Source of the DNA: Sulfurospirillum multivorans DSM 12446
Lineage (GTDB): Bacteria > Campylobacterota > Campylobacteria > Campylobacterales > Sulfurospirillaceae
Length of the DNA stretch: 64,000 bases
NCBI RefSeq assembly: GCF_000568815.1
Contig: NZ_CP007201.1
Coordinates: 868,001 to 932,000, forward strand
Reading direction: 5' to 3'
The position numbers and the translations under genes were made by a program. The notes below the pieces were generated by a model that had not been told where the DNA came from, made no database searches, and saw only the letters and a program-made list of their open reading frames with translations. Each line of letters starts with the position of its first letter. Within the stretch, counting starts at the first letter, position 1. Shown piece by piece: positions 27,569 through 44,692 of the stretch.

Positions 27569-27594
27569 AAGTTTGTGAATAGTTTCGTTTTTGG

Positions 27595-27637
27595 CTTTAC
27601 ATGTAAACGTAAAGCCCTTTTACGTTTACATGTAAAG
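27595..27637. terminator. Bidirectional hairpin built from two TTTACATGTAAA copies
   Basis: CTTTACATGTAAACGTAAA (27595-27613) is the exact complement of the right arm ending at 27637; the loop is only a few bases. Each arm contains one TTTACATGTAAA (27596-27607 and 27625-27636). The site is between the ends of two converging genes, so it should terminate transcription from both sides. Confidence 0.75.
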
Positions 27638-27644
27638 AGACTTT

Positions 27645-28493
27645 TTATACTCCATCAATACTCAGCAGTATAACGGTTGCCAACAAGAAAAAATTGATCT
27701 TATGAAAAAGGGCACCTGCTCGGCTTGGCGTGAGTGGTTCAGAGAGGATTTTTGTTCCAAAAAAGACCGCCGTTAGATCCAATCCTATTAACAATGCAAT
27801 GACCGTTGGATTATGCACACGAAAAATCAGCATAGCAAAAATACCGCAAAGAATCGTAAATGTCCACCAGACAAAAAGCACCCGACGAAATGCTTCATCA
27901 CCCAATACTTCACTAGCAGTAGGAAATCCTCCTTTTCGGTAGTCTTCATCATGCTTCGCCATCAACAGCCAAAAATGAGGTACCTGCCAGATGAAGAAAA
28001 GCAATCCAAGTGCTAGAAATTCTGGTTCTGCCAGACTGCGTCCTGCTGCCAACCAACCGATAGCAGGAGGGATGACGCCTAAAAGTCCTCCTGGAACGAC
28101 GGTAAACGCTGAATGCGGTTTAAGATAGGTATAAAGACCGTTATACCACAAAGGCACGAAAAGAAAAAGAATCAACCCTAAATTTCCCAGTTCGTTGTGG
28201 ATTAAAAACATTGCTATGAGTATCAGCGCCATCGAAAGCGCCAAAACCTGCAAAGGCGTGATGCGACCCGAAGGAATAGGGCGTCGTTTGGTGCGTGCCA
28301 TTTTGGCATCACTATCCCTCTCTTGGTATTGATTGAGTGCAGAGACGCCTAACGCAAGGAGCAAGACCGCAAGGAGAGACCATGCCATCTGCATGACATT
28401 TTCGCCTCTCACCAGTATAAACGTAAGGACTGCTGAGAGTGTTACGGCTGCTGAGAGGCGAAATTTGGTGACCTCCAAAAATAGGCGAATCAT
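27645..28493 (-). CDS. ctaB: Protohaem IX farnesyltransferase (haem O synthase)
   Basis: 282 residues, UbiA-family membrane prenyltransferase. The first catalytic Asp-rich motif is in NQYQERDSDAKMARTKRRP and the second in the KHDEDYRKGG region. It converts haem B to haem O for the haem-copper oxidase encoded upstream. Its start overlaps the end of coxB. No haem A synthase (ctaA) gene is seen in the window, so whether the oxidase carries haem O or A is open. Confidence 0.92.
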   Translation of the reverse strand: MIRLFLEVTKFRLSAAVTLSAVLTFILVRGENVMQMAWSLLAVLLLALGVSALNQYQERDSDAKMARTKRRPIPSGRITPLQVLALSMALILIAMFLIHNELGNLGLILFLFVPLWYNGLYTYLKPHSAFTVVPGGLLGVIPPAIGWLAAGRSLAEPEFLALGLLFFIWQVPHFWLLMAKHDEDYRKGGFPTASEVLGDEAFRRVLFVWWTFTILCGIFAMLIFRVHNPTVIALLIGLDLTAVFFGTKILSEPLTPSRAGALFHKINFFLLATVILLSIDGV

Positions 28494-29821
28494 TGTAGCT
28501 CTTTAATATAATTGACAAGCGCATCGATTTCTTCTTGCGTGAGCATCTTCCCAAACGGAGGCATGATGTTGGGAGGAAAGCCTTCCACCACATCGGCATT
28601 GGGGTCGTGAATTGATCTGTGCAAATACGCTTCATCCGCCTTCACTTCTCGCTCTTTTCCATCGGTGAGGACTTTTCGGACACTTCCGTAGATACCTTTA
28701 AAACTTGGACCTATCTTTTTCGTTCCATCAAGGCTATGGCATGCGACACAGCTTTTGGTTTTAAATAAGGTCGCACCATCTGGCTTACTTGGAGCAACCG
28801 CTTGTGGTTCTGTTTTGACAGGCTCCTCGGCGGCAGGCTTGGGCTTTTCATGCGCCGCAGTGGGTGTGGTATCGTTTTGCTGTTTGATAAACTCTATGAG
28901 AGATTCCATCTGGTCTTTGTCGATTTGGTCTGAAAGATTTGGCATAATTCCATTTTGAAACCCTTGCACCACATCTTTATCAGGTGTTCGAATGGATGAG
29001 CGAATGTAGTCGTCATCCGCAATCACTTCGCGGAGTTTTCCTTCTGTCAGTACTTTGATTTTAGCCCCGTACATGCCTTTAAACGAAGGACCTACACTCT
29101 CTGAGCCATCTAAACTATGGCATGAAACACATCCGAGTGTCTTATAGAGTTCCTCGCCTTTTCCTTTGGGCTCTTCTGTGTCGTGAGGACTGAGTTTTCC
29201 ACTAGAATACCATGCATCAAAAGCTGGTTTGTCCATAACTTCTAATTTTGTCAGCATCATCGAATGTCCGACACCGCAATATTCTGCACATTCGATGTCA
29301 TAATTCCCTGCTACGGTTGCGTTAAACCATAAATGCGTAACCTTGCCTGGTACGACATCTTCTTTAACACGAAACGCTGGAACGAAAAAACTGTGCAAAA
29401 CGTCGCCGCTTGGTGCTTCTAAGCGCAGTCGAATGTTTTCGCCTATAGGAACATAAAGTTCTGTCGTTCGCTTGCCATTAGGGTAAGTAAAGGTCCACGA
29501 CCACCGCTTCCCCAGTACATCGACCGTAAAAGCATTTTCAGGCATCGTTCGTAACTCTCTAAACGAGCTATACCCGTAATAGAAAATGATGAACAGCAAG
29601 ATTGTAGGAATAACCGTCCATGCGATCTCTAGAGGCAGATAATGGGTGATGTTTTTGATCTCATTTTGCTTAACTTTGCTGTGATGGTAACGGAAAATAA
29701 AAAAGACCATAAGTCCCACAACCAGCACGAACATGGCGACTGAAATGCCTGTTGAAATCCAAAACGCCTGATCGACATCATCGGCGAAGGTAGAAGCATG
29801 TTTATTAAATCCTTCCAGCAT
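28490..29821 (-). CDS. coxB: Cytochrome c oxidase subunit II with CuA and two c-type haem domains
   Basis: 443 residues. Two N-terminal helices, then the CuA domain with CAEYCGVGHSMM (near 180). Two cytochrome c domains follow with CVSCH (near 230) and CVACH (near 357), separated by a Pro/Ala/Glu-rich linker. The architecture is that of caa3-type oxidases; two haem c domains rather than one is the less common form. The two haem domains are similar to each other, implying internal duplication. It passes electrons from reduced cytochrome c to CoxA. Confidence 0.93.
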   Translation of the reverse strand: MLEGFNKHASTFADDVDQAFWISTGISVAMFVLVVGLMVFFIFRYHHSKVKQNEIKNITHYLPLEIAWTVIPTILLFIIFYYGYSSFRELRTMPENAFTVDVLGKRWSWTFTYPNGKRTTELYVPIGENIRLRLEAPSGDVLHSFFVPAFRVKEDVVPGKVTHLWFNATVAGNYDIECAEYCGVGHSMMLTKLEVMDKPAFDAWYSSGKLSPHDTEEPKGKGEELYKTLGCVSCHSLDGSESVGPSFKGMYGAKIKVLTEGKLREVIADDDYIRSSIRTPDKDVVQGFQNGIMPNLSDQIDKDQMESLIEFIKQQNDTTPTAAHEKPKPAAEEPVKTEPQAVAPSKPDGATLFKTKSCVACHSLDGTKKIGPSFKGIYGSVRKVLTDGKEREVKADEAYLHRSIHDPNADVVEGFPPNIMPPFGKMLTQEEIDALVNYIKELQ

Positions 29822-29831
29822 CAGGACTCCT

Positions 29832-30104
29832 TTACGAATAGGCCACGTCGATACCGACGATCACAAAAAAGATAAGCAGGATGATCAACGCCATCACGAT
29901 ATAGCCTTTTAAATAGGCGTTTTCACTACGCAAATGCATGTAAAATGCACTGACAAGTCCTACCTTTATAGCACTTATTCCTAACTGTACACCTGCTGTA
30001 TTACCAGGAGTCAGATGATACAACATGGGCTGTACGAACGTGAGCAGTGTCAGTAACAGCAGTCCGACCAATACTTTTGTATAAAGAGATAGAGTGTATG
30101 TCAT
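29832..30104 (-). CDS. coxD: Cytochrome c oxidase subunit IV-type small membrane protein
   Basis: 90 residues with three hydrophobic segments. The middle (LGISAIKVGLVSAFYMHLRSE) carries the family Lys-x-x-x-V-x-x-x-Y-x-M-H-L pattern of prokaryotic caa3 subunit IV. It lies between coxB and coxC and is the expected accessory subunit. Confidence 0.85.
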   Translation of the reverse strand: MTYTLSLYTKVLVGLLLLTLLTFVQPMLYHLTPGNTAGVQLGISAIKVGLVSAFYMHLRSENAYLKGYIVMALIILLIFFVIVGIDVAYS

Positions 30105-30105
30105 C

Positions 30106-30753
30106 TTAGGCTCCTATCATGTAAAGTAGCGGAAAAAGAACGATCCAGATCAGATGTACAAAATCCCAGTATAGAGTGGTATTTTTCATAACGATGGTAT
30201 GTTCAGGACGGATACCACCCGAGCGCATAAGCAGCAACACCCAACTCATAAGTGCTATTCCTATGATTACATGTAAACCGTGAAGTCCTGTCATGACAAA
30301 ATAAAGACCGAAAAAAAGTATCTCTCCTGTGTCTTTGGCGTCAAGCAGTTTGGAACCAGGATAGATACCATGGCTGATATCTACACCCCACTCCGAAGCT
30401 TTTATACCTAAAAATACAATAGCGATGAAAATCGTCAAACCGACTAACGTAGCAGAGAGTTTTACCTTCCCCTGACGCATCATCAGTGTAGCAACCCCCA
30501 TCGTATAGGTGCTGATTAAGAGTAATACCGTATTGGTTCCGCCCAGCCAGATGTTTAAATCTGCGGAGGAGGAAGCAAACATTGCCGTATGTCGATAGAA
30601 GTAGATGCCATACAGTAAAAAAAGTACACCGAACATCATTCCCTCAGTGAGCAAAAAAACCCAAAAGCCAAGTTTATCACCACTGTAATCATCCTTAAAA
30701 TCAGCTACGGGATAGGACTTGCCCTGCCTATCATAAGCCATCTCCTGTTCCAT
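30106..30753 (-). CDS. coxC: Cytochrome c oxidase subunit III
   Basis: 215 residues, five to seven helices, with the subunit III features LGFWVFLLTEGMMFGVLF, YWDFVHLIWIVLFP and FVMTGLHGLHVIIG (here VITCKP-like palindrome copy read just before). It overlaps coxA by one base and coxD follows immediately. A core non-catalytic subunit of the oxidase. Confidence 0.92.
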   Translation of the reverse strand: MEQEMAYDRQGKSYPVADFKDDYSGDKLGFWVFLLTEGMMFGVLFLLYGIYFYRHTAMFASSSADLNIWLGGTNTVLLLISTYTMGVATLMMRQGKVKLSATLVGLTIFIAIVFLGIKASEWGVDISHGIYPGSKLLDAKDTGEILFFGLYFVMTGLHGLHVIIGIALMSWVLLLMRSGGIRPEHTIVMKNTTLYWDFVHLIWIVLFPLLYMIGA

Positions 30754-32399
30754 TAGCGTATCCTTCTAAAATTTTCGTCCAGCTGAACCAACGGTTCGCC
30801 GTCCTCATATTCGTAAGGGTCAAAATCCACATAAGGAATCTTAGAAAAGTTCTCTAAAGGTGGCGGAGAAGGGATATGCCACTCCAATGTCGTACCTCTC
30901 CAAGGATTTGGACCCGCTTCTTTACCCTCTTTGAGCCCTTTGTAAAACGTATAAAGAACAAGTAAAAGACCCAATGCAACTAAAAGGGCTCCGATACCAG
31001 AGAGTTGATGATAGATTGTAAACGTCGGTAGATAGTCAAAATAGCGTCTAGGATTGCCAAGAAAGCCTGCGATAAACATCGGGAACCACAGCATGTTAAA
31101 GCCAACGAACACCAAACCAAAAGCGACACGGCCTTTCACTTCATCATACATTGCTCCCGTGATTTTTGGATACCAGTAATGCATTCCACCGATGAACATA
31201 AACACCACGCCACCCAAAATGGTATAGTGAAAATGCGCCACAACGAAGTAGGTGTCATGAAGATGGATGTCTGGACCCAAAGCCCCAAGCGTGAGTCCTG
31301 TAAGCCCGCCAACGGTAAAGTTTATAATACTTCCAAGAATCCACAGCATGGGTGTTGCTAGAACAATAGAGCCTTTATAAAGCGTGGCTAACCAGTCAAA
31401 TATTTTCACTCCCGTGGGTATGGCGACAAGAAAAGTCAAAAATGAGAAGATGAGACGTGCTATGTCGCTGATACCTGAGGTAAACATATGGTGTCCCCAA
31501 ACCAAATAACCAATCCCTGCAATGGAAGCAGAAGAAATGGCAATAGAGCGGTATCCAAAAATGGTACGCCTTGTGAACACGGGCAAAACTTCTGAGATGA
31601 TGCCAAATCCAGGAAGAATCATAAGATAGACCGCGGGATGAGAATAGATCCAAAAAAGATGTTCAAAGAGGATAGGATCACCACCTTTTGAAGGATCAAA
31701 AACGCCAATGCCCAGTGTTCGCTCCAAGATAACCAATATGAGTGTAATGCCTATGACAGGAGTCGCAAGTACTTGTATCCAAGCGGTAGCATACAAACCC
31801 CAGACAAAAAGTGGCATCTTAAAAAAATCCATACCGGGTGCTCGTAGACGGTGGATCGTCACGACAAAATTGAGCCCCGTCAAAATGGAAGAAAGACCCA
31901 AAATAAATGCTGCAATCAGCGTGGAGAGCACATGAGAATCCGTGCGGATACTATAGGGTGCATAAAACGTCCAACCCGTGTCTGCAAATCCCGCTCCTGT
32001 GACCAAAGAGGAGAGGGCTATCACCACTCCTAGGATATACAGCCACCACGACAACAGATTTAAACGAGGGAAGGAAAGATCTCTCGCTCCAAGCATCAAT
32101 GGCAATATAAAGTTTCCCAGTGCAGCGGCAATTCCTGGGACAATGAACAAAAAGATCATCGTGACTCCGTGGAAGGTAAAAAGCTGATTGTATGTTTGGG
32201 CTTGTATCAACTGTTGTCCAGGGAAAAACAGTTCTGCACGCATGGTCAGTGCGGCACCGACCGCACAAAAAAACAGTGTGAACAGCACACCTATATATAA
32301 AATAGCTATGCGTTTATGATCTATCGAAAATATCCACTGCAGTATCTTGCTTTTATGCGTCCCAAAGATAGTATGTGTTTCATGATAAAAACTAGGCAT
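30753..32399 (-). CDS. coxA: Cytochrome c oxidase subunit I (A2-type haem-copper oxidase)
   Basis: 548 residues with twelve helices. Haem and CuB ligands are visible: FTFHGVTMIF, WIYSHPAVYLMILPGFG, WGHHMFTSG and VAHFHYTILGG. The helix VI motif has Tyr-Ser before His-Pro instead of the Glu found in A1 enzymes, placing it in the A2 (caa3, Thermus-like) group. It reduces oxygen to water and pumps protons. The start overlaps the sco gene by 8 bases. Campylobacterota usually rely on cbb3 and bd oxidases, so this enzyme is an uncommon addition. Confidence 0.93.
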   Translation of the reverse strand: MPSFYHETHTIFGTHKSKILQWIFSIDHKRIAILYIGVLFTLFFCAVGAALTMRAELFFPGQQLIQAQTYNQLFTFHGVTMIFLFIVPGIAAALGNFILPLMLGARDLSFPRLNLLSWWLYILGVVIALSSLVTGAGFADTGWTFYAPYSIRTDSHVLSTLIAAFILGLSSILTGLNFVVTIHRLRAPGMDFFKMPLFVWGLYATAWIQVLATPVIGITLILVILERTLGIGVFDPSKGGDPILFEHLFWIYSHPAVYLMILPGFGIISEVLPVFTRRTIFGYRSIAISSASIAGIGYLVWGHHMFTSGISDIARLIFSFLTFLVAIPTGVKIFDWLATLYKGSIVLATPMLWILGSIINFTVGGLTGLTLGALGPDIHLHDTYFVVAHFHYTILGGVVFMFIGGMHYWYPKITGAMYDEVKGRVAFGLVFVGFNMLWFPMFIAGFLGNPRRYFDYLPTFTIYHQLSGIGALLVALGLLLVLYTFYKGLKEGKEAGPNPWRGTTLEWHIPSPPPLENFSKIPYVDFDPYEYEDGEPLVQLDENFRRIR

Positions 32400-33216
32400 C
32401 GTTTTCCTCCGATGAGTCTTTTTTTCTTCCTGTTAAAACTAAGTAAAGAAAAAAACCGCCTAATAGAAGCGATAGAACCACAGCGACTATTTTTTCTGTC
32501 GCTAAGACATAGGTCTTGGCGACAGAATCGAAAGAAAAGCAAAACAGCAGTGTCTTTGCGATAGTCGGTCTTACCGTTCCCTGCGACGCTTCCATCATTG
32601 CCATCTGAATATCAAAAGGAAGTTGTTTTATGCCGTTGAGATAACGAGTGATCTTACCTTCTGGTGAGAGAGCAATCAGTACAGCAGGGTGTATGTACTC
32701 CACCATCATCCCATGATGCCCCATCTGTTTTTCATAATGAAATCCTACACTTTGTGTCACCTGCGAAATATCTGCCTCTGTTCCAGTCAGGAATGTCTAT
32801 GCCTTTGTATCGAAATGTGTCAAGGGCGCCATCAGCTCAGACTTTTTATGCGCTGCATCTTTAGGTGTTTCGACAGGATCAAAACTTAATGTAATGACCT
32901 TATAGTCTTTATTTTCTGTCAGTTTGACTTTCTCTAGATTTTTTGCAAGGTCTTGGAGTTGAAGGGTACACAAAGCGGGGCATACGTAGTAGTTCAACGT
33001 AAGGATGATCGGCTTACCGTCCATGAGTTGCCTGAACGTCACCTGTTTGCCAGTTTCATCTAAAAACGGGATATCTAAAGGCACATAACTGCCTAGATGT
33101 TCTTCTTCCCCAAGTTTTTCATTTGCACATAAAGCAGAACAGAACAGCATGACAGCAAAAAATTGACTTAAAAAAGATGAAAACACACTATTTTTTTTTA
33201 ATGCATAAGTCGACAT
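32392..33216 (-). pseudogene. sco1: SCO1/SenC copper chaperone gene interrupted by an in-frame TAG
   Basis: Two open segments lie in the same frame and read as one SCO protein of about 274 residues. The first (to 32800) has a signal peptide and the copper motif YYVCPALCTLQ; the second has the conserved His region (EYIHPAVLIALSPEGKI) and a C-terminal membrane helix. They are joined by a single TAG at 32797-32799 in DTKA-stop-TFLTGTE, where SCO proteins normally have Trp (TGG). No insertion or frameshift is needed. A nonsense mutation, a sequencing error or amber suppression are the options. SCO helps build the CuA centre of CoxB. Confidence 0.85.
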
Positions 33217-33605
33217 ATTTAAACTCTCCTCTAGTTAAAAAACATCACATTACATCAATCCCCTATAACTATTATTTATATATTCTAGATTGCATCCTAA
33301 CCGAACAATTTAAAAATCAATCTTTCATATTTTAGTTACGTCAACTCTATGTGTTTCTTTTAAATTAACGGGGTTCCTGTCTCTTTTCCCTCTGTCACAA
33401 ACCCACATAATCCCTTTTACATGTAAAGAAGAGCATAAACGTTAAAACTTTAGCTCTCTCCTTTTAATTTTAAAATATTCTTAAAATTTTATGCTATTTT
33501 CATGCTACACAGTTAATGTAAGATTTCGACAGACTTCTTACATAACTTAGTTCATTCCATTATGTTAGGTCATGTAAGAAGTCTAATATGTTTTAAGGAG
33601 GCAAT
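33217..33605. other. Divergent intergenic region, oxidase operon / porin
   Basis: 389 bases without a gene. It has the ribosome site of sco (GAGGAGAG near 33225), a palindrome copy (33417-33428) followed by the composite repeat TAAACGTTAAAACTTTA (to 33455), and a 13-bp inverted repeat in the porin leader. AT-rich stretches near 33290 and 33480-33500 are likely promoters, but I cannot fix hexamers with confidence. Confidence 0.6.
33531..33584 (+). promoter_or_regulatory. Leader hairpin of the porin gene
   Basis: AGACTTCTTACAT (33531-33543) and ATGTAAGAAGTCT (33572-33584) are exact complements around a 28-base loop. It ends 11 bases before the strong AAGGAGG ribosome site. It could stabilise the mRNA, bind a regulator as DNA, or be a structured leader. 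Confidence 0.6.
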
Positions 33606-34952
33606 ATGAAATTAGTTAAACTTAGCTTGGTGGCTTTCGTCGTTGCTGGACTTGCGTCTAGCTCTTTTGCTGCGAGTGATACACTTGCAGACGCATTTAA
33701 GAATGGTAAAGTAAATGGTGAATTAAGAGCTTGGTATTTTGATAGAGACACGGGTGATCAAAATACGAACACTCTCGCTAAAGGTGACGCAGATATTTTT
33801 TCGACAGGTGTTATGCTGAGTTATGTAACGGATTCATTGTATGGATTAAGTCTTGGTACGACATTCCAGTCAAGCTATTCTCCCTTTGCCGACAATGACG
33901 CAAAAAATCTTTACGGTACCGATATGTACGGTTCAGGTGCTGTGCTTTCAGAAGCTTATGTAACGTATACGCTTGGTAAAACAACGGCAAAAGTGGGTCG
34001 TCAATTTATTGCAAGCCCGCTCGTTAACAGCTCTGGTTCACGCATGATTAAAGAAGCGTTTCAAGCAGCCGTTTTGATCAATACAGACCTTCCAGATACA
34101 ACCTTGGTTGCAGGGTATTCTGACAGATTTCAAGGCAGAACATCCGATTATGACAGAAGTGTAGATGGTTCTGATTCTGAGATGCCTAGCTTTAAAAAAG
34201 AAGCGGTATTTTACGGAACGGGTACGACTGCAGGATCAAACGTGTTTGGATTTGATGGCGCATACACAGCGGCTGCTATCAATAAATCAATCACAAACTT
34301 GACATTAACAGGTCAATACCTCTTTGTCAATGATGTTGAATTCACAGAAGGCGGTGATGCCAATGTCTTCTATGCGGAGGGTAACTATGTTGTGCCTTTA
34401 AGCACGATGAAACTCCTTTTTGATGTAACGTACCGTGGTTCGAGAACATCCAATGAGACATTTGATAGTTTCCATGTTGAAGGCGATATGTACCAAGGAC
34501 GTATCGGTTTTAGTGAATTGGCAGGCTTTAAGGCATCTTTTGCGTATAGCACAGTCTCCGATGACCAATCCGTTCTCTTAGGTGCAGGAAATGGACCATC
34601 AACCTATACAGCACCACTGATCAAAGGTGCGGAAGTAACGTCTGGTGCTAATACAAATGCCTACAAAGTTGAAGTTGGTTACGATTTTTCAAAAGTCGGT
34701 GTTGCAGGTCTTAAAGTCTTAGGTCAGTATGCAAAAATCAATCAAGACGCACACACTGCTGGCGCTTTAGCAACGGTATTGAATGGTGTAGCTGTGGATA
34801 CAGAATCTACTTACTGGGAAGCACAAATTGCTTACGATCTTCCAACCATCAAAGGTTTGACACTCTCTTTAGAGTATGAAGATGGTCAAAAAGAGACAAC
34901 CACAACGGTAGACTCAAGCGAGATGCGATTTAGAGCTAATTACAAATTCTAA
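33606..34952 (+). CDS. Outer membrane porin (OprD-like, Campylobacterota type)
   Basis: 448 residues with signal peptide MKLVKLSLVAFVVAGLASSSFA. The rest is beta-barrel: alternating strands such as GELRAWYFDRDTG, LSEAYVTYTLGKTTAKVGRQF, with C-terminal FRANYKF ending in Phe for BAM insertion. It resembles OprD-family porins common in Sulfurospirillum-like bacteria and probably lets small anions or peptides through. A strong AAGGAGG site and an efficient terminator suggest high expression. Confidence 0.85.
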   Translation: MKLVKLSLVAFVVAGLASSSFAASDTLADAFKNGKVNGELRAWYFDRDTGDQNTNTLAKGDADIFSTGVMLSYVTDSLYGLSLGTTFQSSYSPFADNDAKNLYGTDMYGSGAVLSEAYVTYTLGKTTAKVGRQFIASPLVNSSGSRMIKEAFQAAVLINTDLPDTTLVAGYSDRFQGRTSDYDRSVDGSDSEMPSFKKEAVFYGTGTTAGSNVFGFDGAYTAAAINKSITNLTLTGQYLFVNDVEFTEGGDANVFYAEGNYVVPLSTMKLLFDVTYRGSRTSNETFDSFHVEGDMYQGRIGFSELAGFKASFAYSTVSDDQSVLLGAGNGPSTYTAPLIKGAEVTSGANTNAYKVEVGYDFSKVGVAGLKVLGQYAKINQDAHTAGALATVLNGVAVDTESTYWEAQIAYDLPTIKGLTLSLEYEDGQKETTTTVDSSEMRFRANYKF

Positions 34953-34977
34953 CGTCTACACGCGTTAATCTTTTCTA

Positions 34978-35003
34978 AACCAGTGGCAGTGATGCCACTG
35001 GTT
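34978..35003 (+). terminator. Rho-independent terminator of the porin gene
   Basis: AACCAGTGGCA and TGCCACTGGTT form an 11-bp perfect stem with a GTGA tetraloop, followed by CTTCTTTTAGTTTTT. It lies 26 bases after the porin stop codon. Confidence 0.92.
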
Positions 35004-35079
35004 CTTCTTTTAGTTTTTAGCGTTACATGTAAAGAACATTAAACGTTTTGACCCCTATATCTAGGGATATTGTAACACA

Positions 35080-36012
35080 CTAGCCGTTTCTTAGTTTATC
35101 TCTGAGTTCAGATAATTTTTGAGCAATGACATTGGCATCTTTCTCAAGTTTGGAAAGATGTCCCATCGTCTCTAAGATAACAAGGTGATTTTGTGCAATC
35201 GCCTCTTTTAAAAGCTCCAAGATAGGGACAAAATTTTCATTATAAGAAGTCTTATCCATCATTTTGTCTTTAAAATCATAATCTATCCCTTTGAGGATAT
35301 AATACATAGCGATAAGATTGCCCTTGATTCTGTAAAATTTATCATCATCTGTCGAAAAGGTCGTTGTGGTCATAAGATTGGTTTGAAGTTGCTGTTTGAG
35401 TTGATCTACAGCGGTTGCTAAATTGTCAGAATTGACTATAAAAACAGCTCTTTTATTGATCATCTCTTTCGTTTGGTCTTCTTTTAGTTGTTTTAAGTAT
35501 AGGTCAATGTTTGAAACGGATTGTTTCACCCGTGTGGTATAGCTTGTAAAGAGAGGAATCCTAAAATCCGAATAAATATCAGAACGTGCTTGAACGAGGT
35601 ATTTGTTCGCTCCACCCGTTCCTCTGTTGCGTGCAAGATTGTTTTCAAGGATATTGATGCCGATACGAAACATCTCTATCTCACCCACTTGTTGGTAGTA
35701 TTTATTATCGATCCACGTTCTCACCCCTAGAAAATTAGTCACAAGCCCTTGATCCAGTAGGTTTTGAAGCCCATCTCTAAGAGACATGGTTGTTGACTCC
35801 CCTTCTAATGTTTTGAACTCTTTGACTACCGGTACGGTATCTGTTGTAATACTGTAAAACGGTGCTACAAAAAGGCTAATCGGGAAGAACCAAAGGACTA
35901 AAGCAACCGCCGCTACGACAAAAAGAGCAAAAAATCTTTTTAAAAAAATGAACCACTCTCTCATATTAAACACATATGAGAAAAATCTACTTTGTAAGCT
36001 TTTTGTTTCCAT
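35080..36012 (-). CDS. DUF2333-like inner-membrane-anchored protein
   Basis: 310 residues. One membrane helix near 22-45 (FFALFVVAAVALVLWFFP) leaves a long periplasmic part with SLRDGLQNLLDQGLV and NLARNRGTGGANKYL, resembling the DUF2333 family of unknown function. Helical, coiled-coil-like C-terminus. The ATGGAG ribosome site fits the start at 36012. Alone on its strand; no functional neighbour. Confidence 0.7.
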   Translation of the reverse strand: METKSLQSRFFSYVFNMREWFIFLKRFFALFVVAAVALVLWFFPISLFVAPFYSITTDTVPVVKEFKTLEGESTTMSLRDGLQNLLDQGLVTNFLGVRTWIDNKYYQQVGEIEMFRIGINILENNLARNRGTGGANKYLVQARSDIYSDFRIPLFTSYTTRVKQSVSNIDLYLKQLKEDQTKEMINKRAVFIVNSDNLATAVDQLKQQLQTNLMTTTTFSTDDDKFYRIKGNLIAMYYILKGIDYDFKDKMMDKTSYNENFVPILELLKEAIAQNHLVILETMGHLSKLEKDANVIAQKLSELRDKLRNG

Positions 36013-36132
36013 AAATTACTCCATTAAATATCTTTGATATAAACACTATTCTATCAGAAATCTACCCAATAGCACCTACTGAAATATAAACTAAAGGGTG
36101 AATGGTAACAGGCTCATTTTTTCTATTTCCAC

Positions 36133-36207
36133 CCACGCAACCCCTTCAAAAACTTCACCCATCCCCTTTACATGTAAACTCAAAAATCCCCCACAAACTT
36201 AAATTTA
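36133..36207 (+). repeat. 75-bp direct repeat, left copy, at border of the restriction island
   Basis: Begins CCACGCAACCC and ends CTTAAATTTA with TTTACATGTAAAC in the middle. It aligns without gaps to 44618-44692 at 60 of 75 positions. A TTGACT follows 12-13 bases later in both copies. Confidence 0.8.
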
Positions 36208-36219
36208 GTGTCTTTCTCA

Positions 36220-36249
36220 TTGACTGGCTTAATGCGAAAAGTATATAAT
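36220..36249 (+). promoter_or_regulatory. Sigma-70 promoter before the brnTA remnant
   Basis: TTGACT (36220-36225) and TATAAT (36244-36249) with an 18-base spacer. It lies 16 bases before the first open codon of the toxin remnant, so it may be the original brnTA promoter, placed close by deletion of the toxin start. Confidence 0.7.
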
Positions 36250-36264
36250 CACAATATACATTAA

Positions 36265-36402
36265 TGCCACTGTTACGCGCTTGGATGTAGCGACAACGGC
36301 GAGAATTTGTTTGTGATATTTACGCTGAGAGAGCGAAAAATTAGGGTTATATCGGCACGCTTAATGAATAAAAAAGAGAGGGTCATCTATGAAAACGCTT
36401 AA
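36265..36402 (+). pseudogene. brnT: BrnT toxin, C-terminal remnant
   Basis: An open frame without a start reads ...LGCSDNGENLFVIFTL, RERKIRVISARLMNKKERVIYE, then stop at 36402. This is the C-terminal half of BrnT RNase toxins (the ISAR...KKER.YE signature). The N-terminal half is missing; a TAA precedes base 36265. It overlaps the brnA start by 14 bases as in intact brnTA loci. Confidence 0.75.
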
Positions 36403-36658
36403 AACCATACCAAACTTTACATCGCAAGAAGAAGAGAACACTTTTTGGGAAACACACGACTCAAGTGAGTTTATGGACTGGAGTGAAGCGAAAAAAGTGC
36501 GCTTTCCTAGGCTTCAAAAAAGTGCCAAAACCATCTCTATCCGCATGCCTGTTGATATGATAGAAGAGGTCAAAGTACAAGCCAATAAGCTTGATATTCC
36601 GTAGCAGTCGTATATTAAAATGATCATTGCGCAAGGGTTGAAAGGGCGAACGGCTTAG
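36389..36658 (+). pseudogene. brnA: BrnA/CopG-type antitoxin with an in-frame TAG
   Basis: 89 codons. The first 71 give an N-terminal binding region (FWETHDSSEFMDWSEAKK) and a ribbon-helix-helix start (TISIRMPVDMIEEVKVQANKLDIP). A TAG at 36602-36604 interrupts, and the same frame continues QSYIKMIIAQGLKGRTA to a TAG at 36658, exactly the end of such antitoxins (normally DIPYQSYIKM, so the stop replaces a Tyr codon). The antitoxin is probably non-functional or truncated, consistent with loss of its toxin. Confidence 0.75.
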
Positions 36659-36702
36659 GGTTAGAAAGTTTAAAAGTTTAGCCCTAGATTACGACATATT
36701 CT

Positions 36703-39672
36703 CTATGCATTAAAATGTCTATACAATTCTTTTGACATGTTTTCCATAAGATAAGATTTAAAAGAACTATCGGTAAATATCTTCTGAAATAACACCTCAT
36801 TGGTACTTTTTTTATCAAGCATCATTTTTAAAAAATACCCTTTTTTGAATTGTTCTTCAAACTCATCGTATGAATTAACTTGTGCAATATCTTTCAAGTC
36901 TTCATTTTTCTTATGTGCTTCCAATGGTTGGTCATAAAAAGCAAGTCTATCTTCATCACTCAAATCAAGTCCAAATAGGTCATTTATTCTTTGAATCAAA
37001 CTGTTTAAGTCCACCTCTTCTTTCTCTTTGCTACGGCTTCCACCTTCGCTAAAACCTTTGAGTTCTTTTTCTTCACCTTTGTGCAAAGAGATGTCTTCGC
37101 CATTTATTTCATCGCCATTCATGCGTTTGAGCTTATAAAAATCAAGGCTCAATAACCCCTCAAGCTCAACTTTATTAATGGTATCTTTGGGGAACTTCCT
37201 GATAAGTCCGCCAAGATAGATATACATTTCATACAGAGATGTTTTTTTGATAGGATATATTTGAATGAGAAAGTTATAAGCTCTAAAAAACTTAATCACA
37301 TAGGTTTTAAACTCATCTTTTTTGGTATCGTCATCTAATTTATTAAATCTATCGATGCCAAAATTTATGAAATTATCCATTTTTGCGTTGTCGGTTGGGC
37401 TTCTGTCCTCTTTGAGATACAGTTTACAATACCCTTTGACTTCCTCTTCATAACAGATATGAAACTCATCAATTTTATGATAAAACTCAAACACAATGTT
37501 TGGGTCGGTCATCTCTTCGATATTTGAAGTCGTGTAGTACCTAGCAAAAGAGTCTTTGATGGTTTCTACACTATTGACAAAGTCAAGGACAAATGTATTG
37601 TCTTTCCCCTTGGCGACACGGTTTACTCGTGAGAGTGTTTGTACTGCTGTCACACCGTTGAGCATTTTATCGACATACATCGCACACAGTTTGGGTTGGT
37701 CAAAACCTGTTTGATATTTATCGGCTACGATTAAAAATTTGATGTTCTCCATGCTGTCAAATACTTTAACCAGCTCACTCTCTTTGATAGCATTGACACT
37801 CTCTTCGGTATATTTTACTTCATCAACTTTCAATTCACCCGAAAAAGCAATAAGCGATTTGACATAAGGATAATGCGTCGCCAAATACGCATCCATTGCC
37901 AACTTATACTTCAACGCATGAAGCCTAGAGCTTGTGACGATCATCGCTTTTGCTTGGTTTTTTAACCATAAAGAACGATTAGCCATAAAATCTTCTACGA
38001 TGACTTCTACTTTTTGTTTGATATTGTATTCATTGAGATTTATAAAAGCTCCTATTGCTTTATTTGCGCCTCTTTTTTCAAAGATAGGATTGTCTTTTAT
38101 CTTTTTACCGACTTTAAAATAGGTATCGCTTACCATGTAATTTTTAAGTGGGTCAAGGATAAATTTCTCTTCGATAGCTTGTTGCATAGAGTATAAATGA
38201 AATTCATGAGGTTTTCCATCCTCTTTAACTCTTCCAAAGATTTGCATTGTTTTATCTTTAGGTGTTGCTGTGAAAGCGAAAAAGCTTAAATGCCTTGTAT
38301 CGGTGATGGCTTCGAGTATTTTGTTGACATCATCTTCACTGGTGCTTTCAAACTTTGCATCAAATGCTTTGGCTTCATCCAAATTCTTACCACTCAGTGC
38401 TAGCTTTAAGTAGTTGATGTTCTCTCCACTGGTACTAGAATGCGCCTCATCAATGATAATGGCATACTTGTTCTTCTCCAAATTCTCTATCTTTTTGTAC
38501 GCATAAGAAAATTTTTGAATGGTGGTTATGATGATTTTCGATTTATTTTGTAACGCTAACGCTAAGTCATTGGAGTTTTTGTTTTTGTCTATCTTAACAA
38601 CAAGCCCCTTTGTTTTATCAAGCTGATAAATAGCGTCTTGGAGTTGTTTATCTAACACTTTTCTATCGGTGATGACGATGATACTATCAAAGATAAGGTT
38701 GTCTTGCTCGTCATGCAGTTTTGAAAGTCTATGCGCAAGCCACGAGATAGAGTTTGTCTTACCGCTTCCTGCGCTATGTTGTATGAGGTACTTGTGTCCT
38801 GCTTTTTCCTCTTTGACTTTGCACTCAACTTTTTTGACAACATCGAGTTGATGATACCTTGGGAAAATGGCTATTTTCTTTTTTGGATCTTTTTCATCCA
38901 CTTGAATAAAATAAAAATTACGAAAAATATCTAAAAGAGAATCTTGCAAGAGTATCTCTTCCCATAAGTAATGCGTTTTAAATTTATCTTCTATGGTTGG
39001 GTTTCCCGCTCCTTGTCCAATACCTTTGTTAAAAGGCAAAAAGTAAGTATCTTTCCCTTTAAGCTCGGTTGTCATGCTCACTTCATCGTTATCCACTGCA
39101 AAATAGATGAGCGTTCTCGTGTTAAATTCACTGAGTTTGCTTCGATAGCTTCTATCGAGCCTAAACTGCTTTTTGGCATCTTCGGTATCTTGTCCTGTGT
39201 ATTTATTTTTGAGTTCTATCACAACGATAGGGAAGCCATTGAGAAACAGTACTAGGTCTATTGAAGTTTTTGCTCCATCTTCAAAATAAAGCTGTCTTGT
39301 TATCGAAAAAATGTTGGCATTATAAAGTTTAACAGTCTCGTCGTTTTTAGTGTTATTGGGTTTAAAATAGACAAGTCGCAGGTTTGAAGATAAGCTATAG
39401 TCTTCAACACCCTCACGCAAAATAGTGATTAAACCTTTTTGCTTGATGTTGGTGTCTATCATGTCGATGAGCTTTTCTTCCCAATTTGTTGGGCGAAACT
39501 TTTTAAACTCTTCTAAAAGCTTTTTTTGGGTTGCTTCTAGGAATTTAAAAAGTTCAACCTTGTTGATGCACGATTTTCTATCAAAGTCACTGCTTGCACT
39601 TTGTGTAAATTCACTTTTTATGAGGGAGTTTTGTATCGCTTCTTCAACATCTTTTTCTTTGATATGCGCCAT
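36703..39672 (-). CDS. hsdR: Type I restriction enzyme, R subunit
   Basis: 989 residues. N-terminal PD-(D/E)XK nuclease: SIDLVLFLNGFPIVVIELKNKY (Asp, Glu-x-Lys) near 137-158. The Walker A is HSAGSGKTNSISW, the Walker B IIIDEAHSS, and helicase motifs VADKYQTGFDQPKL and QTLSRVNR follow. Cuts unmodified DNA far from the recognition site after ATP-driven translocation, in complex with HsdM and HsdS. A ribosome site AAAGG precedes the start. Apparently intact. Confidence 0.95.
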   Translation of the reverse strand: MAHIKEKDVEEAIQNSLIKSEFTQSASSDFDRKSCINKVELFKFLEATQKKLLEEFKKFRPTNWEEKLIDMIDTNIKQKGLITILREGVEDYSLSSNLRLVYFKPNNTKNDETVKLYNANIFSITRQLYFEDGAKTSIDLVLFLNGFPIVVIELKNKYTGQDTEDAKKQFRLDRSYRSKLSEFNTRTLIYFAVDNDEVSMTTELKGKDTYFLPFNKGIGQGAGNPTIEDKFKTHYLWEEILLQDSLLDIFRNFYFIQVDEKDPKKKIAIFPRYHQLDVVKKVECKVKEEKAGHKYLIQHSAGSGKTNSISWLAHRLSKLHDEQDNLIFDSIIVITDRKVLDKQLQDAIYQLDKTKGLVVKIDKNKNSNDLALALQNKSKIIITTIQKFSYAYKKIENLEKNKYAIIIDEAHSSTSGENINYLKLALSGKNLDEAKAFDAKFESTSEDDVNKILEAITDTRHLSFFAFTATPKDKTMQIFGRVKEDGKPHEFHLYSMQQAIEEKFILDPLKNYMVSDTYFKVGKKIKDNPIFEKRGANKAIGAFINLNEYNIKQKVEVIVEDFMANRSLWLKNQAKAMIVTSSRLHALKYKLAMDAYLATHYPYVKSLIAFSGELKVDEVKYTEESVNAIKESELVKVFDSMENIKFLIVADKYQTGFDQPKLCAMYVDKMLNGVTAVQTLSRVNRVAKGKDNTFVLDFVNSVETIKDSFARYYTTSNIEEMTDPNIVFEFYHKIDEFHICYEEEVKGYCKLYLKEDRSPTDNAKMDNFINFGIDRFNKLDDDTKKDEFKTYVIKFFRAYNFLIQIYPIKKTSLYEMYIYLGGLIRKFPKDTINKVELEGLLSLDFYKLKRMNGDEINGEDISLHKGEEKELKGFSEGGSRSKEKEEVDLNSLIQRINDLFGLDLSDEDRLAFYDQPLEAHKKNEDLKDIAQVNSYDEFEEQFKKGYFLKMMLDKKSTNEVLFQKIFTDSSFKSYLMENMSKELYRHFNA

Positions 39673-39675
39673 AAA

Positions 39676-40701
39676 TCAACCTTTGATTTGATACTTTTGT
39701 TTTGCGTTTTCTATCACTTTATGCAGTCTTTGTTCAAACTCTTCTTTGGGTGGCAGGATGGTTAAATATTTGGCTACATGTATATCGGAGTGTTCTATCT
39801 CTAGTAGCTCTATTTGTTCTTCATTTTTATCGGCACAAAGAATGATGCCCAAAGGTAAATTTTCATCCTCTTGTCTTTCGTACTTTTGCAACCATTTGAG
39901 ATAAAGTTCCATTTGTCCTTTATACTCTGCTTTGAACTTACCAAGTTTCAAGTCTATGGCGATAAGTCTTTTTAATTTACGATTGTAAAAAAGCAGATCT
40001 ATATAAAAATCATCTTCACCTATTTGGATTCTTTTTTGTCGTGCAATAAAGCTAAAACCGTTTCCAAGTTCTAAGATAAAGTGCTCAATCTCACGCAAAA
40101 TAGCATCTTCCAAATCTTTTTCCAAGTATCGGTCATTGAGTTCTAAAAAGTCCAAAACATACGGGTCTTTTAAAAGCATAGTAGAGCTTACTGCGCCCTC
40201 TTTGAGTTTTTCTATCTCATAAGAGATAAGTTCATCTGGTTTTTTTGAAAGTGCTGTTCGCTCATAAAGCATTGAATCAATTCGATTTCTTAAAGTTCGC
40301 ACACTCCAGTTATCTAAGCTACTCATTTGAGCGTAAAATTCTATTTGTAGAGCATCTTCCATTGGCAATAATTCTTTAAAATGAGACCAACTTAAATGTT
40401 GCGACAGCGTAGCAACATTTTCAAAAGTAAAGCATTGAGCGAACTTCATCATTCGTGTAAGCGATGAATAGCTATAACCTTGCCCAAACTCTTTAATCAA
40501 TTGTTGCGACACTGTAGCAACAATTTGATTTCCATACTCTGCGCGGTTGTTTTTTACGATATCTTCATTGATTTTAGTGCCTATGTGCCAATACATTAAA
40601 GTCAAAGATGAGTTTACGCTAATGGCTATTTGCTCTTTTGTAGATGCTATTAAAGATTTTAATTCATTGACCAAGTTTTTGTTTTCTATTAGTTCACTCA
40701 T
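39676..40701 (-). CDS. DUF1016/YhcG-type PD-(D/E)XK nuclease-domain protein
   Basis: 341 residues. The N-terminal DUF1016 helical part starts ASTKEQIAISVNSSLTLMYWHIG and includes ATLSQHLSWSHFKELLP; the C-terminal PD-(D/E)XK domain has DDFYIDLLFYN and RLIAIDLKLGKFK. Such proteins are often inserted in type I restriction loci; the function is not settled. It lies between hsdS and hsdR in the same orientation with AGGAG before its start, so it is part of the operon. Confidence 0.85.
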   Translation of the reverse strand: MSELIENKNLVNELKSLIASTKEQIAISVNSSLTLMYWHIGTKINEDIVKNNRAEYGNQIVATVSQQLIKEFGQGYSYSSLTRMMKFAQCFTFENVATLSQHLSWSHFKELLPMEDALQIEFYAQMSSLDNWSVRTLRNRIDSMLYERTALSKKPDELISYEIEKLKEGAVSSTMLLKDPYVLDFLELNDRYLEKDLEDAILREIEHFILELGNGFSFIARQKRIQIGEDDFYIDLLFYNRKLKRLIAIDLKLGKFKAEYKGQMELYLKWLQKYERQEDENLPLGIILCADKNEEQIELLEIEHSDIHVAKYLTILPPKEEFEQRLHKVIENAKQKYQIKG

Positions 40702-40710
40702 CTTTAACTC

Positions 40711-42681
40711 CTATACCTTTATGAGTTGTTTTTCACACATCCACTCTATGGCTTTAAGCCAATTTTCTTGTGGAATTTTTTTCTTGTTATCATGCCAATG
40801 ATTTAGTATCTCATCCAGTAAATTCTCCGTAGAAACTCTATTTTCTTTTGATAAATCAATATAGGCACTATAAACTGTTGCGACTATCTCTGCTTGGAGT
40901 GTTCTCATTCCTTTCATGAGGTTGAAAATATACTCAATGTTTTCTTGCTTCCAATACCGTCCATCAAGGTATTTTAGGTATTCTGTATGGTTTTCTAAGG
41001 CTATGTATTCTACTTTTTCAAAATTACCATTTTTGATTTTTTGAGCTTCAAACCATTTTGATTTTTGGAGTTGCGACTCAATAGAATGAATCATCTTAGA
41101 GTCATGTGGTCCCATAGCGTGACGACGATAGTCACTTCCAAAGTCTAAATTGTTTACAGCTTCAGCCATATAAAGGAGTTTTTGTAATTTGACTCTTCCA
41201 AAATAAATATCATTTTTTGAGTTATCGATAAAATAAGCTGCTAAAACCCTTCTTTGAAAGTACTCATTTGCCTTACTCTCTTTTTCAATAACTTCTATTT
41301 TCCCCGTAACCGCTTCGCTGATAAGAGCTTCTTTTGCCTCTTTTAGTTTTGTGATACTCTGCTTTGTTTTTGCGATGGTATTGTCAAAATGGATAAGTTT
41401 TTCATCGAGGTATTTTGAGATTTGTTTTTGCTCGGTTAGATCAAAATGTGGAACAAAAATATTTTTGAAAGCATCTAAGCTTAAACCATATCTTGTGACA
41501 CCTTTTGCCATTGTTTCAAAATAATTTCTTACTCCAACCAATTCAAAAAATCTAAATAAATATTTACTATAAACTTCTTTTTTACTATTTCGTAAAATTG
41601 CAAGATGATAGCCACACAAAACATTTTCAAAGTTTTCATTTACATAAGCCGGAATTGCAATATCATCAGGAGATTCTGAATCTTTTGTAATTAAAATATC
41701 CCCAAATTGTAATGAGAATTTTTTTATTTCAGATTCATTTGCTGTAGCTTCCATGAAATCTATTTTATTTGTTACGAGATCATTTTTATAAACATCAACA
41801 TAATTACAGAGTAAAACTTTTTCTTGTCCTTCATAACTCTTTTTATCTACATTACTTGAGATTATTTCTGAAATATATTTCAACTTCTTAATTTTCCACT
41901 CGTTAGGTATGACGCCTAACCATTCTACACCGCTTGGTTTTAGCTCACTTGGTGCTCTTTTGATGGTATGTCGTTTTGAGTTGTTTTCCACAACTTTGAG
42001 TTTTCCTGTGACAACTTCGCTGATTAAAGCCTGTTTTGCTAGTTCTAACTTAGCGATAAGTTGCTCTTTTTTTGAGATAGCATCATCAAAGATTTTACTT
42101 TTTTCATCTAAAAAATGTACTATTTTTTGTTGCTCATCAATATTTGGATAGGAGATGTAATTTGAAAGATAATTGTCAGTATCTAAGTTCTGAATTCCTG
42201 TAGTTTGTTTAATACTTTCTAAAACTACCCTTTGGCTATATAAAGAATTAAAAATTAAAACTAAAAATTTTGAATTCATTACTTGATTATTTATACTAAT
42301 TTTATTCATAAAATTTGAACAAACTGCTTTTTGCTCTAAATCATATAACACTACTCTTCCAACAGGAGTTTTCTCTCCTCCTCCAGATTTTTCTATAACT
42401 AAATCATTTTTTTTAAGAATTCTACTTTTTAATTCACCATTTGAAATATTTCTTACTGTAAAATTATTTTCATTAAATATTAATTTATCATAATCTATAT
42501 CTGCTACTCTCAAACATATAACATCATTTTCATTATTTTCTTCGTTATTTCCCCAAACTCCACCAATTAAATTTATTACAAATCTTTTTATTTTAGTTAA
42601 TCCCCAATCCTTAAGAATATCCCCCACCCACGCAACACCACTTGGTTTTAACTCATTTTGTTCTCGGATTCTGTATTTCAT
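40711..42681 (-). CDS. hsdS: Type I restriction specificity subunit with C-terminal SocA/Panacea-like domain
   Basis: 656 residues, much longer than the usual 400-450. Two target-recognition domains start with parallel ELKPSG-VxW-G segments (near 10 and 235) and end with conserved helices (SEVVTGKLKVVE near 218, SEAVTGKIEVIE near 455). From about 470 to 656 there is an additional domain with VKLQKLLYMAEAVNNL and RRHAMGPHDSKMI, the pattern of the DUF4065/SocA (Panacea) antitoxin domain. The start overlaps hsdM. The extension is the odd feature; it could be a fused antitoxin-like module or a guard domain. Confidence 0.85.
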   Translation of the reverse strand: MKYRIREQNELKPSGVAWVGDILKDWGLTKIKRFVINLIGGVWGNNEENNENDVICLRVADIDYDKLIFNENNFTVRNISNGELKSRILKKNDLVIEKSGGGEKTPVGRVVLYDLEQKAVCSNFMNKISINNQVMNSKFLVLIFNSLYSQRVVLESIKQTTGIQNLDTDNYLSNYISYPNIDEQQKIVHFLDEKSKIFDDAISKKEQLIAKLELAKQALISEVVTGKLKVVENNSKRHTIKRAPSELKPSGVEWLGVIPNEWKIKKLKYISEIISSNVDKKSYEGQEKVLLCNYVDVYKNDLVTNKIDFMEATANESEIKKFSLQFGDILITKDSESPDDIAIPAYVNENFENVLCGYHLAILRNSKKEVYSKYLFRFFELVGVRNYFETMAKGVTRYGLSLDAFKNIFVPHFDLTEQKQISKYLDEKLIHFDNTIAKTKQSITKLKEAKEALISEAVTGKIEVIEKESKANEYFQRRVLAAYFIDNSKNDIYFGRVKLQKLLYMAEAVNNLDFGSDYRRHAMGPHDSKMIHSIESQLQKSKWFEAQKIKNGNFEKVEYIALENHTEYLKYLDGRYWKQENIEYIFNLMKGMRTLQAEIVATVYSAYIDLSKENRVSTENLLDEILNHWHDNKKKIPQENWLKAIEWMCEKQLIKV

Positions 42682-44519
42682 TAGGCTAACAGCTCTTTTA
42701 AATCTTCATTGATGGCACTTTCAAGCTCTCGAATGTCAACCATAATGTCCTCGAAACGCTCAAGCGTTTTATACTCATAAAAGTGGCGTGTAAAGGGAAG
42801 TTCATAGCCTATGTTTTCAAAGGTGCTCTCATCCATCCACGATGAAACCAAGTGTGGTTTTACCTCTTCAGCAAAATAGTCTAATATATCTTTTTTAAGC
42901 GGTATCGACTCGGTGTCCTTGGCTATGAGTAGGTTGAGCTCAGTTGTTTTGAGCTTTACATGTAAGAATTTTACAAATGCAACTTTGGAGGCAAACGCTT
43001 TTTTTTCATCTTCGATGAGTTGGAGTTTTTTAAGGATTTCGTCTTTACATGTAAGCTCTTGAAACTTCTCATCGTCTTTGAGTTCTTCGTATGTTTTAGG
43101 GCGTTCTATGGTGATTTTGGTGTAGCCAAAGTCGGTGTTGTCGAAGATTTTTGAGTGAGAGGTATTTTTAAAAGCTTGATAAATTGTTGCTATCTCTTCT
43201 ATCTGTTCTTTGTCTATAAACTTTCGTTTGCTTCCAAGTGATTTTCTCATGGGTTTTGAAAAGTCACTGGCGTTTACAAGTTGGATTTTTCCTTTTCTTT
43301 GCTTCACTTTTTTATTGGTCAGTACCCAAATGTAGGTTGAAATGCCTGTATTGTAAAAAAGGTCGGTTGGAAGAGAGATGATACCCTCTAACATATCGGA
43401 CTCGATGATCCACTTTCGTATGCTACTCTCTCCACCACCTGCATCACCCGTGAAAAGCGGTGACCCGTTGAAGATGATAGCAATGCGACTTCCTTGCGCA
43501 TCATCAACCATTTTGCTAATCATATTTTGCAAAAAGAGCAATGAACCATCACTCACTCTTGGCACGCCTGCGCCAAATCTTCCATTAAAACCATAGGTTG
43601 AGTGTTCTGTTGTTACATAACTTTGCTCTTTTTTCCACTGTACACCAAACGGCGGATTTGAGATGAGGTAACGGTAGTGTTTTCCTTTGTGTCCGTCATC
43701 GGTTAAAGTGTTTCCAAAGACGATGTTGTTGGTATCTTGCCCTTTGATGAGCATATCTGCTTTACAAATGGCGTACGATTCATCGTTGATTTCTTGCCCG
43801 TAAAGTTCTACTTTGGCATCTTTGTTTTGCTCTAAAATGTACTTATAGCCCACAGAGAGCATACCTCCCGTACCACAGCAAAAATCTGCTATGGAGATGA
43901 CTTTACCTTTTGTCTTTATCTCTTCAATTTTGCCCATAAAAAGCATTTTCATACAAAGCTCTATGACTTCTCTTGGGGTATAGTGGTCTCCCGCTTCGGC
44001 ATTTTCTTTGAACTTTCGTATCAACTCTTCAAAAATATAGCCCATCGTTTGGTTATCGACTCTTTTAGGGTGTAAATCTACACTATTAAACTCTTTGATG
44101 ACATGAAAAAGTTGATTGTTTTTTGCGAGTTTATCGATGTCTTTGTTAAAATCAAAGTGCGCTATGATGTCTTTAATGTTAGAAGAGAAGCCTTGCAAAT
44201 AGGCTATAAAGTTCTCTTTTAAATGGTCTTGGTCATCGCAAAGATTTTTAAAGCCAAAAGGCGAAATGTTGTAAAAATCAAGACCGTTAAGTGCTGTTTT
44301 GATAAGCTCTTCTTGAGACGCTTCGGGAATGTCTTTATAAAGCTGATACGCTTTTAAAATAGCTTCTTTTTTTTCACTGATGATTTCATCAAAGCGTTTG
44401 ATAACGCACATCGGGAGAATGACATCACCGTATTTTTCAGGTTTGTAAACCCCTCTGAGACTCTCTGCAATTTGCCATATTAAGTTTATCTTGTCATTAA
44501 AGTTTATCATCGAACCCAT
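42681..44519 (-). CDS. hsdM: Type I DNA methyltransferase subunit
   Basis: 612 residues. N-terminal HsdM helical domain (EKYGDVILPMCVIKRFDE), then the N6-adenine methyltransferase with DFCCGTGGML (SAM site) and ISNPPFGVQW (NPPF catalytic motif). A C-terminal coiled coil (about 490-610) binds HsdS. The start may be the ATG at 44519 or at 44510. Two palindrome copies (42956, 43045) occur within it as LHVK and LTCK, whereas hsdS and hsdR have none. Confidence 0.95.
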   Translation of the reverse strand: MGSMINFNDKINLIWQIAESLRGVYKPEKYGDVILPMCVIKRFDEIISEKKEAILKAYQLYKDIPEASQEELIKTALNGLDFYNISPFGFKNLCDDQDHLKENFIAYLQGFSSNIKDIIAHFDFNKDIDKLAKNNQLFHVIKEFNSVDLHPKRVDNQTMGYIFEELIRKFKENAEAGDHYTPREVIELCMKMLFMGKIEEIKTKGKVISIADFCCGTGGMLSVGYKYILEQNKDAKVELYGQEINDESYAICKADMLIKGQDTNNIVFGNTLTDDGHKGKHYRYLISNPPFGVQWKKEQSYVTTEHSTYGFNGRFGAGVPRVSDGSLLFLQNMISKMVDDAQGSRIAIIFNGSPLFTGDAGGGESSIRKWIIESDMLEGIISLPTDLFYNTGISTYIWVLTNKKVKQRKGKIQLVNASDFSKPMRKSLGSKRKFIDKEQIEEIATIYQAFKNTSHSKIFDNTDFGYTKITIERPKTYEELKDDEKFQELTCKDEILKKLQLIEDEKKAFASKVAFVKFLHVKLKTTELNLLIAKDTESIPLKKDILDYFAEEVKPHLVSSWMDESTFENIGYELPFTRHFYEYKTLERFEDIMVDIRELESAINEDLKELLA

Positions 44520-44617
44520 TCTTTTTTATTTGTTGTATTGTACACTTTTAGATTGATAAGCTTATAAAAGCGAACCTAAATATACATAAAATTATCTTTT
44601 AATTACTGGTTTTAAAT

Positions 44618-44692
44618 CCACGCAACCCTTCCAAAATTTCCACCAATCCCTTTTACATGTAAACCCCCAAAATCCCTAAAATCTTAAATTTA
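44618..44692 (+). repeat. 75-bp direct repeat, right copy, at border of the restriction island
   Basis: Ungapped match to 36133-36207 at 60 of 75 bases, including CCACGCAACCC, TTTACATGTAAAC and CTTAAATTTA. It separates hsdM from the nap promoter region. Confidence 0.8.

Follow-up and report, generated by a model that had tools for sequence, protein, structure and literature searches.

The specificity subunit (HsdS) of a type I restriction-modification (RM) system in Sulfurospirillum multivorans DSM 12446 ends in an additional folded domain that very likely belongs with the C-terminal domain (CTD) of DarG, the part of that antitoxin that binds the toxin DarT. Related domains close the HsdS proteins of dozens of genomes, and sequence comparisons suggest that they travel as a module between unrelated restriction systems. 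We tentatively regard the domain as a portable module with a regulatory or sensor role, which gates the type I complex in cis. The analysed stretch of DNA, here called the window, is 64,000 nt long and covers positions 868,001-932,000 of the forward strand of NZ_CP007201.1 (GCF_000568815.1).

The window contains a tight operon of near-abutting genes on the minus strand that consists of hsdM, hsdS, a gene for a DUF1016/YhcG nuclease and hsdR (Table 1). The hsdS ORF (42681..40711, minus strand) encodes 656 aa, of which residues 1-466 match Pfam Methylase_S (9.4e-14) and PADLOC Specificity_I (1e-87). With two target-recognition domains (TRDs), two coiled coils and an operon shared with hsdM and hsdR, the protein is a type I HsdS. 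These features are those of the EcoKI-like HsdS (PDB 2y7c), but the window protein has one more folded domain past the second coiled coil. In the full-length AF2 model each TRD is followed by a long helix (181-224 and 415-458); a hinge of low confidence (468-470) then leads into a folded domain at 473-650. The presence of a separately folded C-terminal domain of about 180 aa (hereafter the tail) is thus confirmed. An extra domain at this end of HsdS had been proposed in an earlier note, and the interval given there (40711-41275) agrees with the computed domain to within 3 residues. The two motifs singled out in that note, KLQKLLYMAEA and MGPHD, are present at residues 498-508 and 523-527.

Table 1. 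Features of the restriction island and its flanks (window coordinates)
Feature	Position	Strand	Evidence or remark
Left copy of imperfect direct repeat flanking the restriction island	36126..36207	+	82 nt, 78% identical to 44611-44692
hsdR, 989 aa, type I restriction motor and nuclease subunit	36703..39672	-	HSDR_N, SWI2_SNF2, T1R_D3-like; TIGR00348 2.5e-58
DUF1016/YhcG PDDEXK nuclease gene, 341 aa, between hsdS and hsdR	39676..40701	-	YhcG_C 3.6e-49, DUF1016_N 1.1e-42; PADLOC PDC-S02 9.7e-126
C-terminal tail, residues 467-656 (folded core 473-650), very likely DarG-CTD-like, Panacea superfamily	40714..41283	-	hhalign vs DarG CTD probability 97, score 74; AF2; Foldseek/VIA
MGPHD motif (M523-D527), at the site of GPV in Panacea and GPYA in DarG	41101..41115	-	Invariant G57, P58, D60 in alignment A3
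KLQKLLYMAEA helix motif (K498-A508), superfamily signature helix	41158..41190	-	Invariant V30, K31, Q33, K34 in alignment A3
Hinge between HsdS core and tail, residues 468-470	41272..41280	-	Sole stretch with pLDDT <50 in full-length model
hsdS residues 1-466, two TRDs, long helix after each (181-224, 415-458)	41284..42681	-	Methylase_S, Specificity_I, AF2 secondary structure, similarity to EcoKI HsdS 2y7c
hsdM, 612 aa, type I N6-adenine methyltransferase subunit	42681..44519	-	Pfam N6_Mtase 8.6e-56, HsdM_N 8.6e-23; PADLOC MTase_I 1.4e-242
Right copy of flanking direct repeat, just upstream of napA-like gene starting at 44780	44611..44692	+	Single copy at the matching place in G247

Relatives of the tail were gathered from genomes, viral contigs and one plasmid, and 38 sequences were aligned (alignment A3). 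Ten positions are invariant in this alignment (G28, V30, K31, Q33, K34, G57, P58, D60, E131 and T135). No Pfam family is consistently found across the 38 members. The window tail alone matches Pfam SocA_Panacea (PF13274) with an E-value of 0.067 and 14.6 bits, below the gathering cut-off of 25.7 bits, and an E-value under 0.1 is reached by two of the 38. The GPV signature of SocA/Panacea is absent; the window tail has GPHD, and GP-x-D is invariant across the RM-tail family. PDB sequence searches with a single tail and with four tails gave no match, and a search with the 38-sequence profile gave chance matches only. Among these approaches, the link to DarG came solely from profile-profile and fold comparison. 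With hhalign, the tail profile matches the DarG CTD with a probability of 97.2 and a score of 74.0 over 180 columns, and Panacea with a probability of 78.8 and a score of 39.6 over 131 columns. Sixty column shuffles reached maximum scores of 19.1 and 19.8, and reversed or unrelated profiles reached 20.2 at most. The similarity to DUF4065 on which the earlier note had staked its reading is therefore weak but real. The NCBIfam model antitoxin_DarG (NF048014) matches 16 of the 38 members (best E-value 5e-10), the window member alone being unmatched by it, and DarG proteins were retrieved by the tail profile in genome searches. The phage collection contains no tail match and the plasmid collection contains one; in the viral structure library there is none at E 0.001 or better, and in PHROGs there is just a weak match to phrog_1281, a family of unknown function.

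The fold gives the same assignment. An AF2 model of the tail built from 37 sequences has a pLDDT of 93.7 and a pTM of 0.89. A Foldseek search of the PDB gives it a single significant match (below E 0.001), namely 7yk3_B, which is DarG in a DarT-DarG complex (E-value about 1e-3, probability 1.0, TM 0.63). VIA-align superposes the model on 7yk3_D with a Z of 14.8 and an rmsd of 4.1 over 169 of 187 residues; the next-best entry is a winged-helix regulator with a Z of 8.6. The first half of the tail is a winged-helix fold in these comparisons. Taken together, the profile scores, the fold match, the NCBIfam matches and the retrieval of DarG proteins group the tail with the DarG CTD with high confidence, the full-length match being far better than that to Panacea. 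Within the same superfamily, Panacea stands further away. The SocA/Panacea-like label of the earlier note thus holds for the superfamily, but the nearest characterised relative is the DarT-binding CTD of DarG.

The tail and the DarG CTD (PDB 7yk3 chains B and D) are similar in fold over nearly the whole domain and in profile over 180 columns. They have in common a conserved Q/H-K helix, a GPY/GPx loop and an E..(A/S)T helix. However, the window tail has no macrodomain in front of it and no adjoining DarT, has GPHD in place of GPYA, and is only about 12% identical. A DarTG toxin-antitoxin system has an N-terminal macrodomain and an adjacent DarT, whereas the window has the HsdS core in front and DUF1016 downstream. 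With SocA/Panacea (PF13274, DUF4065) the tail shares the KLQKLLY helix, the GP loop and similarity at the superfamily level (hhalign 79%). It differs in falling below the Pfam cut-off, in having GPHD instead of GPV, in an added C-terminal helical half and in the lack of a paired toxin gene.

Most copies of the domain in the loci that were fetched form the C-terminal end of HsdS, in operons that also contain hsdM and hsdR. Such HsdS tails occur in Campylobacterota, Pseudomonadota, Bacteroidota, Planctomycetota, Spirochaetes and one archaeon. The domain is uncommon among sampled genomes: 4 of 347 have it in the phylum of the window, and the tail profile matches 9 of 398, 23 of 395 and 10 of 294 genomes in three other phyla, DarG matches included in these three counts. 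HsdS tails make up 46 of the 89 domains in a quick tree, and one is an HsdM tail. The domain sits at the C-terminus of HsdM in L125 and likewise in the PADLOC HsdM model PDLC03039. A divergent HsdS-tail subfamily was found in Bacteroidota and Planctomycetota (L132-L134, L136, L137, L148, L150), several members of which have the motif AAGPYNPKTKYGGPE.

About 16 free-standing proteins with the tail domain (240-280 aa) were found in Bacteroidota. In the loci read, the gene directly upstream of these proteins is ECF-sigma-like (profile matches to SigW at 6e-4, RpoE and SigH), and several loci adjoin multiubiquitin, ThiF and JAB genes. The resulting two-gene unit (L007, L018-L030, L032) is a candidate regulator pair for ubiquitin-like defence. 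In the tree the DarG domains form one clade (SH-aLRT 97), separate from the RM tails, and the free-standing and HsdM versions are nested among the HsdS tails. Because the tree is unrooted, it assigns no direction between DarG and HsdS.

The nearest tail to that of the window is in Malaciobacter halophilus (L010) and is 58% identical. The remainder of the two systems is far less similar, with identities of 21% for HsdM, 19% for HsdR and 19% for the front of HsdS. In pairs of related systems the usual order is the opposite, with HsdM at 65% and the tail at 46%. This inversion makes exchange the best explanation. DNA similarity between the two hsdS genes starts at nt 1423, or residue 475, at the edge of the domain, and the two neighbourhoods have no gene in common besides the RM genes. 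In a matched-locus comparison the distances between tails track those of HsdM and HsdR at a Spearman correlation of 0.67-0.71, and those of HsdM and HsdR track each other at 0.96. The comparisons thus suggest a tail that moves as a module between unrelated restriction systems. The two tails differ at 0.55 of third, 0.28 of first and 0.24 of second codon positions, and this excess at third positions is as expected from selection on the protein. Conserved as the HsdS C-terminus in dozens of genomes and showing this codon-position pattern, the tail is not a chance extension.

This pattern bears on how the tail could act. In one alternative the tail is a built-in antitoxin that inhibits HsdR in cis, occluding the motor and nuclease until the complex meets unmethylated foreign DNA. 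The tail sits on HsdS/HsdM, the core that must restrain HsdR, and the DarG CTD, as far as cited accounts of it go, blocks a DNA-modifying partner. However, a dedicated interface should not outlast a swap, and a 58%-identical tail stands beside HsdR and HsdM proteins that are only about 20% identical. Neutralisation of HsdR as a dedicated fit, which the earlier note had raised, is weakened by the 19% identity of the two HsdR proteins, and we consider cis inhibition of HsdR rather unlikely.

A classical antitoxin role is another alternative. The tail would neutralise the product of an adjoining toxin gene, which in the window is that of the DUF1016 PDDEXK nuclease, and loss of HsdS would free the toxin and lead to abortive infection. 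Such a role is the known function of the superfamily, the window has the DUF1016 gene 9 bp past hsdS, and the tailed systems L008 and L036 are accompanied by DUF1016 as well. However, the interval from the hsdS tail to hsdR may hold DUF1016 (as in the window), DUF4357 proteins, DUF4268, a UvrD-like helicase, GmrSD, Schlafen-AlbA, DarT-DarG (L011) or nothing. No constant adjacent toxin gene was found among the loci read, and the locus with the nearest tail, L010, lacks the non-RM neighbours of the window. The gap between hsdS and hsdR is moreover a reported hotspot for unrelated defence genes, with DarTG2 located there in EPEC (PMC12255303). The varied content and the reported hotspot together make a dedicated neighbour toxin unlikely. 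DUF1016 as the cognate toxin of the tail was rejected on these neighbourhoods, and its gene looks like cargo. An antitoxin to the adjoining toxin is left unsupported by a downstream gene that differs between loci, and we judge it very unlikely. The sharing of the tail across unrelated systems speaks against both kinds of dedicated antitoxin.

The EPEC RptR-RMS-DarTG-M48 island (PMC12255303) resembles the window in that further defence genes separate hsdS from hsdR in a type I RM system. It differs in that its DarG CTD is in a separate DarG protein, whereas the domain in the window is part of HsdS. A MAG of Candidatus Syntrophoarchaeum, an archaeon, encodes a tailed HsdS, DarT, DarG and HsdR in one operon (L011:2-5049) and so has two domains of the same superfamily. 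The genome of the window also encodes, at a distance of about 1.55 Mb, a DarT-like protein (327 aa) in overlap with a macrodomain protein of 289 aa (L155:4072-5911); the tail profile does not detect the C-terminus of the latter. This is possibly a DarTG variant, and one may ask whether the HsdS tail could act on that DarT.

The RM operon of the window is accessory, since a genome of the same genus (G247) lacks the island at the matching place. Synteny with window positions 26405-35012 is followed there by a single repeat copy and a nap-like operon, with about 950 bp between. A CopG/BrnA-like antitoxin ORF is present in the window at 36389-36604 (plus strand); no recognisable BrnT toxin was found within 36012-36703, and the ORF is possibly an orphan. 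A second genome of the genus (G056, L154:6203-11104) has a decayed RM locus, in which hsdM is truncated and adjoins transposase-like genes, and hsdS has a frameshift within the tail. This was rejected as a natural tail deletion because the entire locus is decayed.

In the type I core, attachment to HsdS/HsdM places the domain on the methyltransferase core, close to the site where HsdR joins. The tail would hang by its short hinge off the second coiled coil, where HsdS meets HsdM and HsdR is recruited. From this position it may control the assembled enzyme in cis, either by restraining restriction or by reporting an infection signal. It would do so by binding a protein of the host or of a phage, from outside the complex, or else a surface that handles DNA. 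Survival of the tail on transfer between unrelated enzymes speaks for an outside partner or a surface of a generic kind, rather than for an interface made to fit HsdR. The pairing of free-standing relatives with ECF-sigma-like proteins provides a second regulatory-looking context and is counted for a control role. For the tail itself, we infer the regulatory nature, the action by way of protein binding and which way the control runs. Many toxins are neutralised by Panacea domains, and a sensor role has been suggested for these domains (PMC8832971, PMC10440598).

The winged-helix first half is counted against a regulatory reading, as a plain DNA-contact role is possible for such a fold. The tail would then provide non-specific or loop contacts with DNA that aid target search or translocation. 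The matches to PadR/MarR-type winged helices (Z about 8) and the basic recognition helix and wing of the free-standing members are in keeping with this. However, those matches span half of the domain and the DarG match spans all of it, and HsdS tails carry little net charge in the recognition helix (+0.3) or the wing (+0.8). We consider a DNA-contact domain unlikely in HsdS; for the free-standing members their basic character leaves DNA contact possible. Mean net charge is +0.8 in HsdS tails and +9 in free-standing members. The DarG CTD blocks DarT by imitating ssDNA at the active site, according to the work cited in PMC11481870 (Deep et al. 2023). A whole-domain DNA mimic was rejected on charge, as HsdS tails are not acidic overall.

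Type I enzymes are known to undergo restriction alleviation through ClpXP, which counts for a further alternative, in which the tail is a SocA-like protease adaptor. It would deliver the complex or a partner for degradation as a form of built-in restriction alleviation, and a conserved host partner would explain its portability. SocA is a ClpXP adaptor as cited in PMC8832971, but other Panacea antitoxins work without ClpXP or Lon (PMC8832971). An adaptor role is highly improbable in our estimation. Control of the type I complex in cis is retained as the preferred reading. A broader and quite unlikely reading is that several unrelated defence systems use one mobile 'safety-catch' module of the DarG-CTD type. 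It would control DarT in DarTG, type I enzymes where it is fused to either HsdS or HsdM, and, as a free-standing protein, the sigma factors encoded next to ubiquitin-like defence operons, and a common infection signal would release all of them.

The architecture was not described in a full-text literature search for HsdS with DarG, Panacea, DUF4065 or SocA, most subscription papers lying outside its scope. The PADLOC models of HsdS and HsdM include the tail domain, unnamed. How phage infection frees DarT from DarG is an open question in the literature (PMC11481870, PMC13368585), and so is what the core Panacea domain does in cases where other parts neutralise (PMC10440598). The occurrence of the same fold on classical and easily assayed type I enzymes makes both questions testable. 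The tail may control the timing of action in many unrelated restriction enzymes, and it would then be a control domain, so far undescribed, that type I enzymes can exchange.
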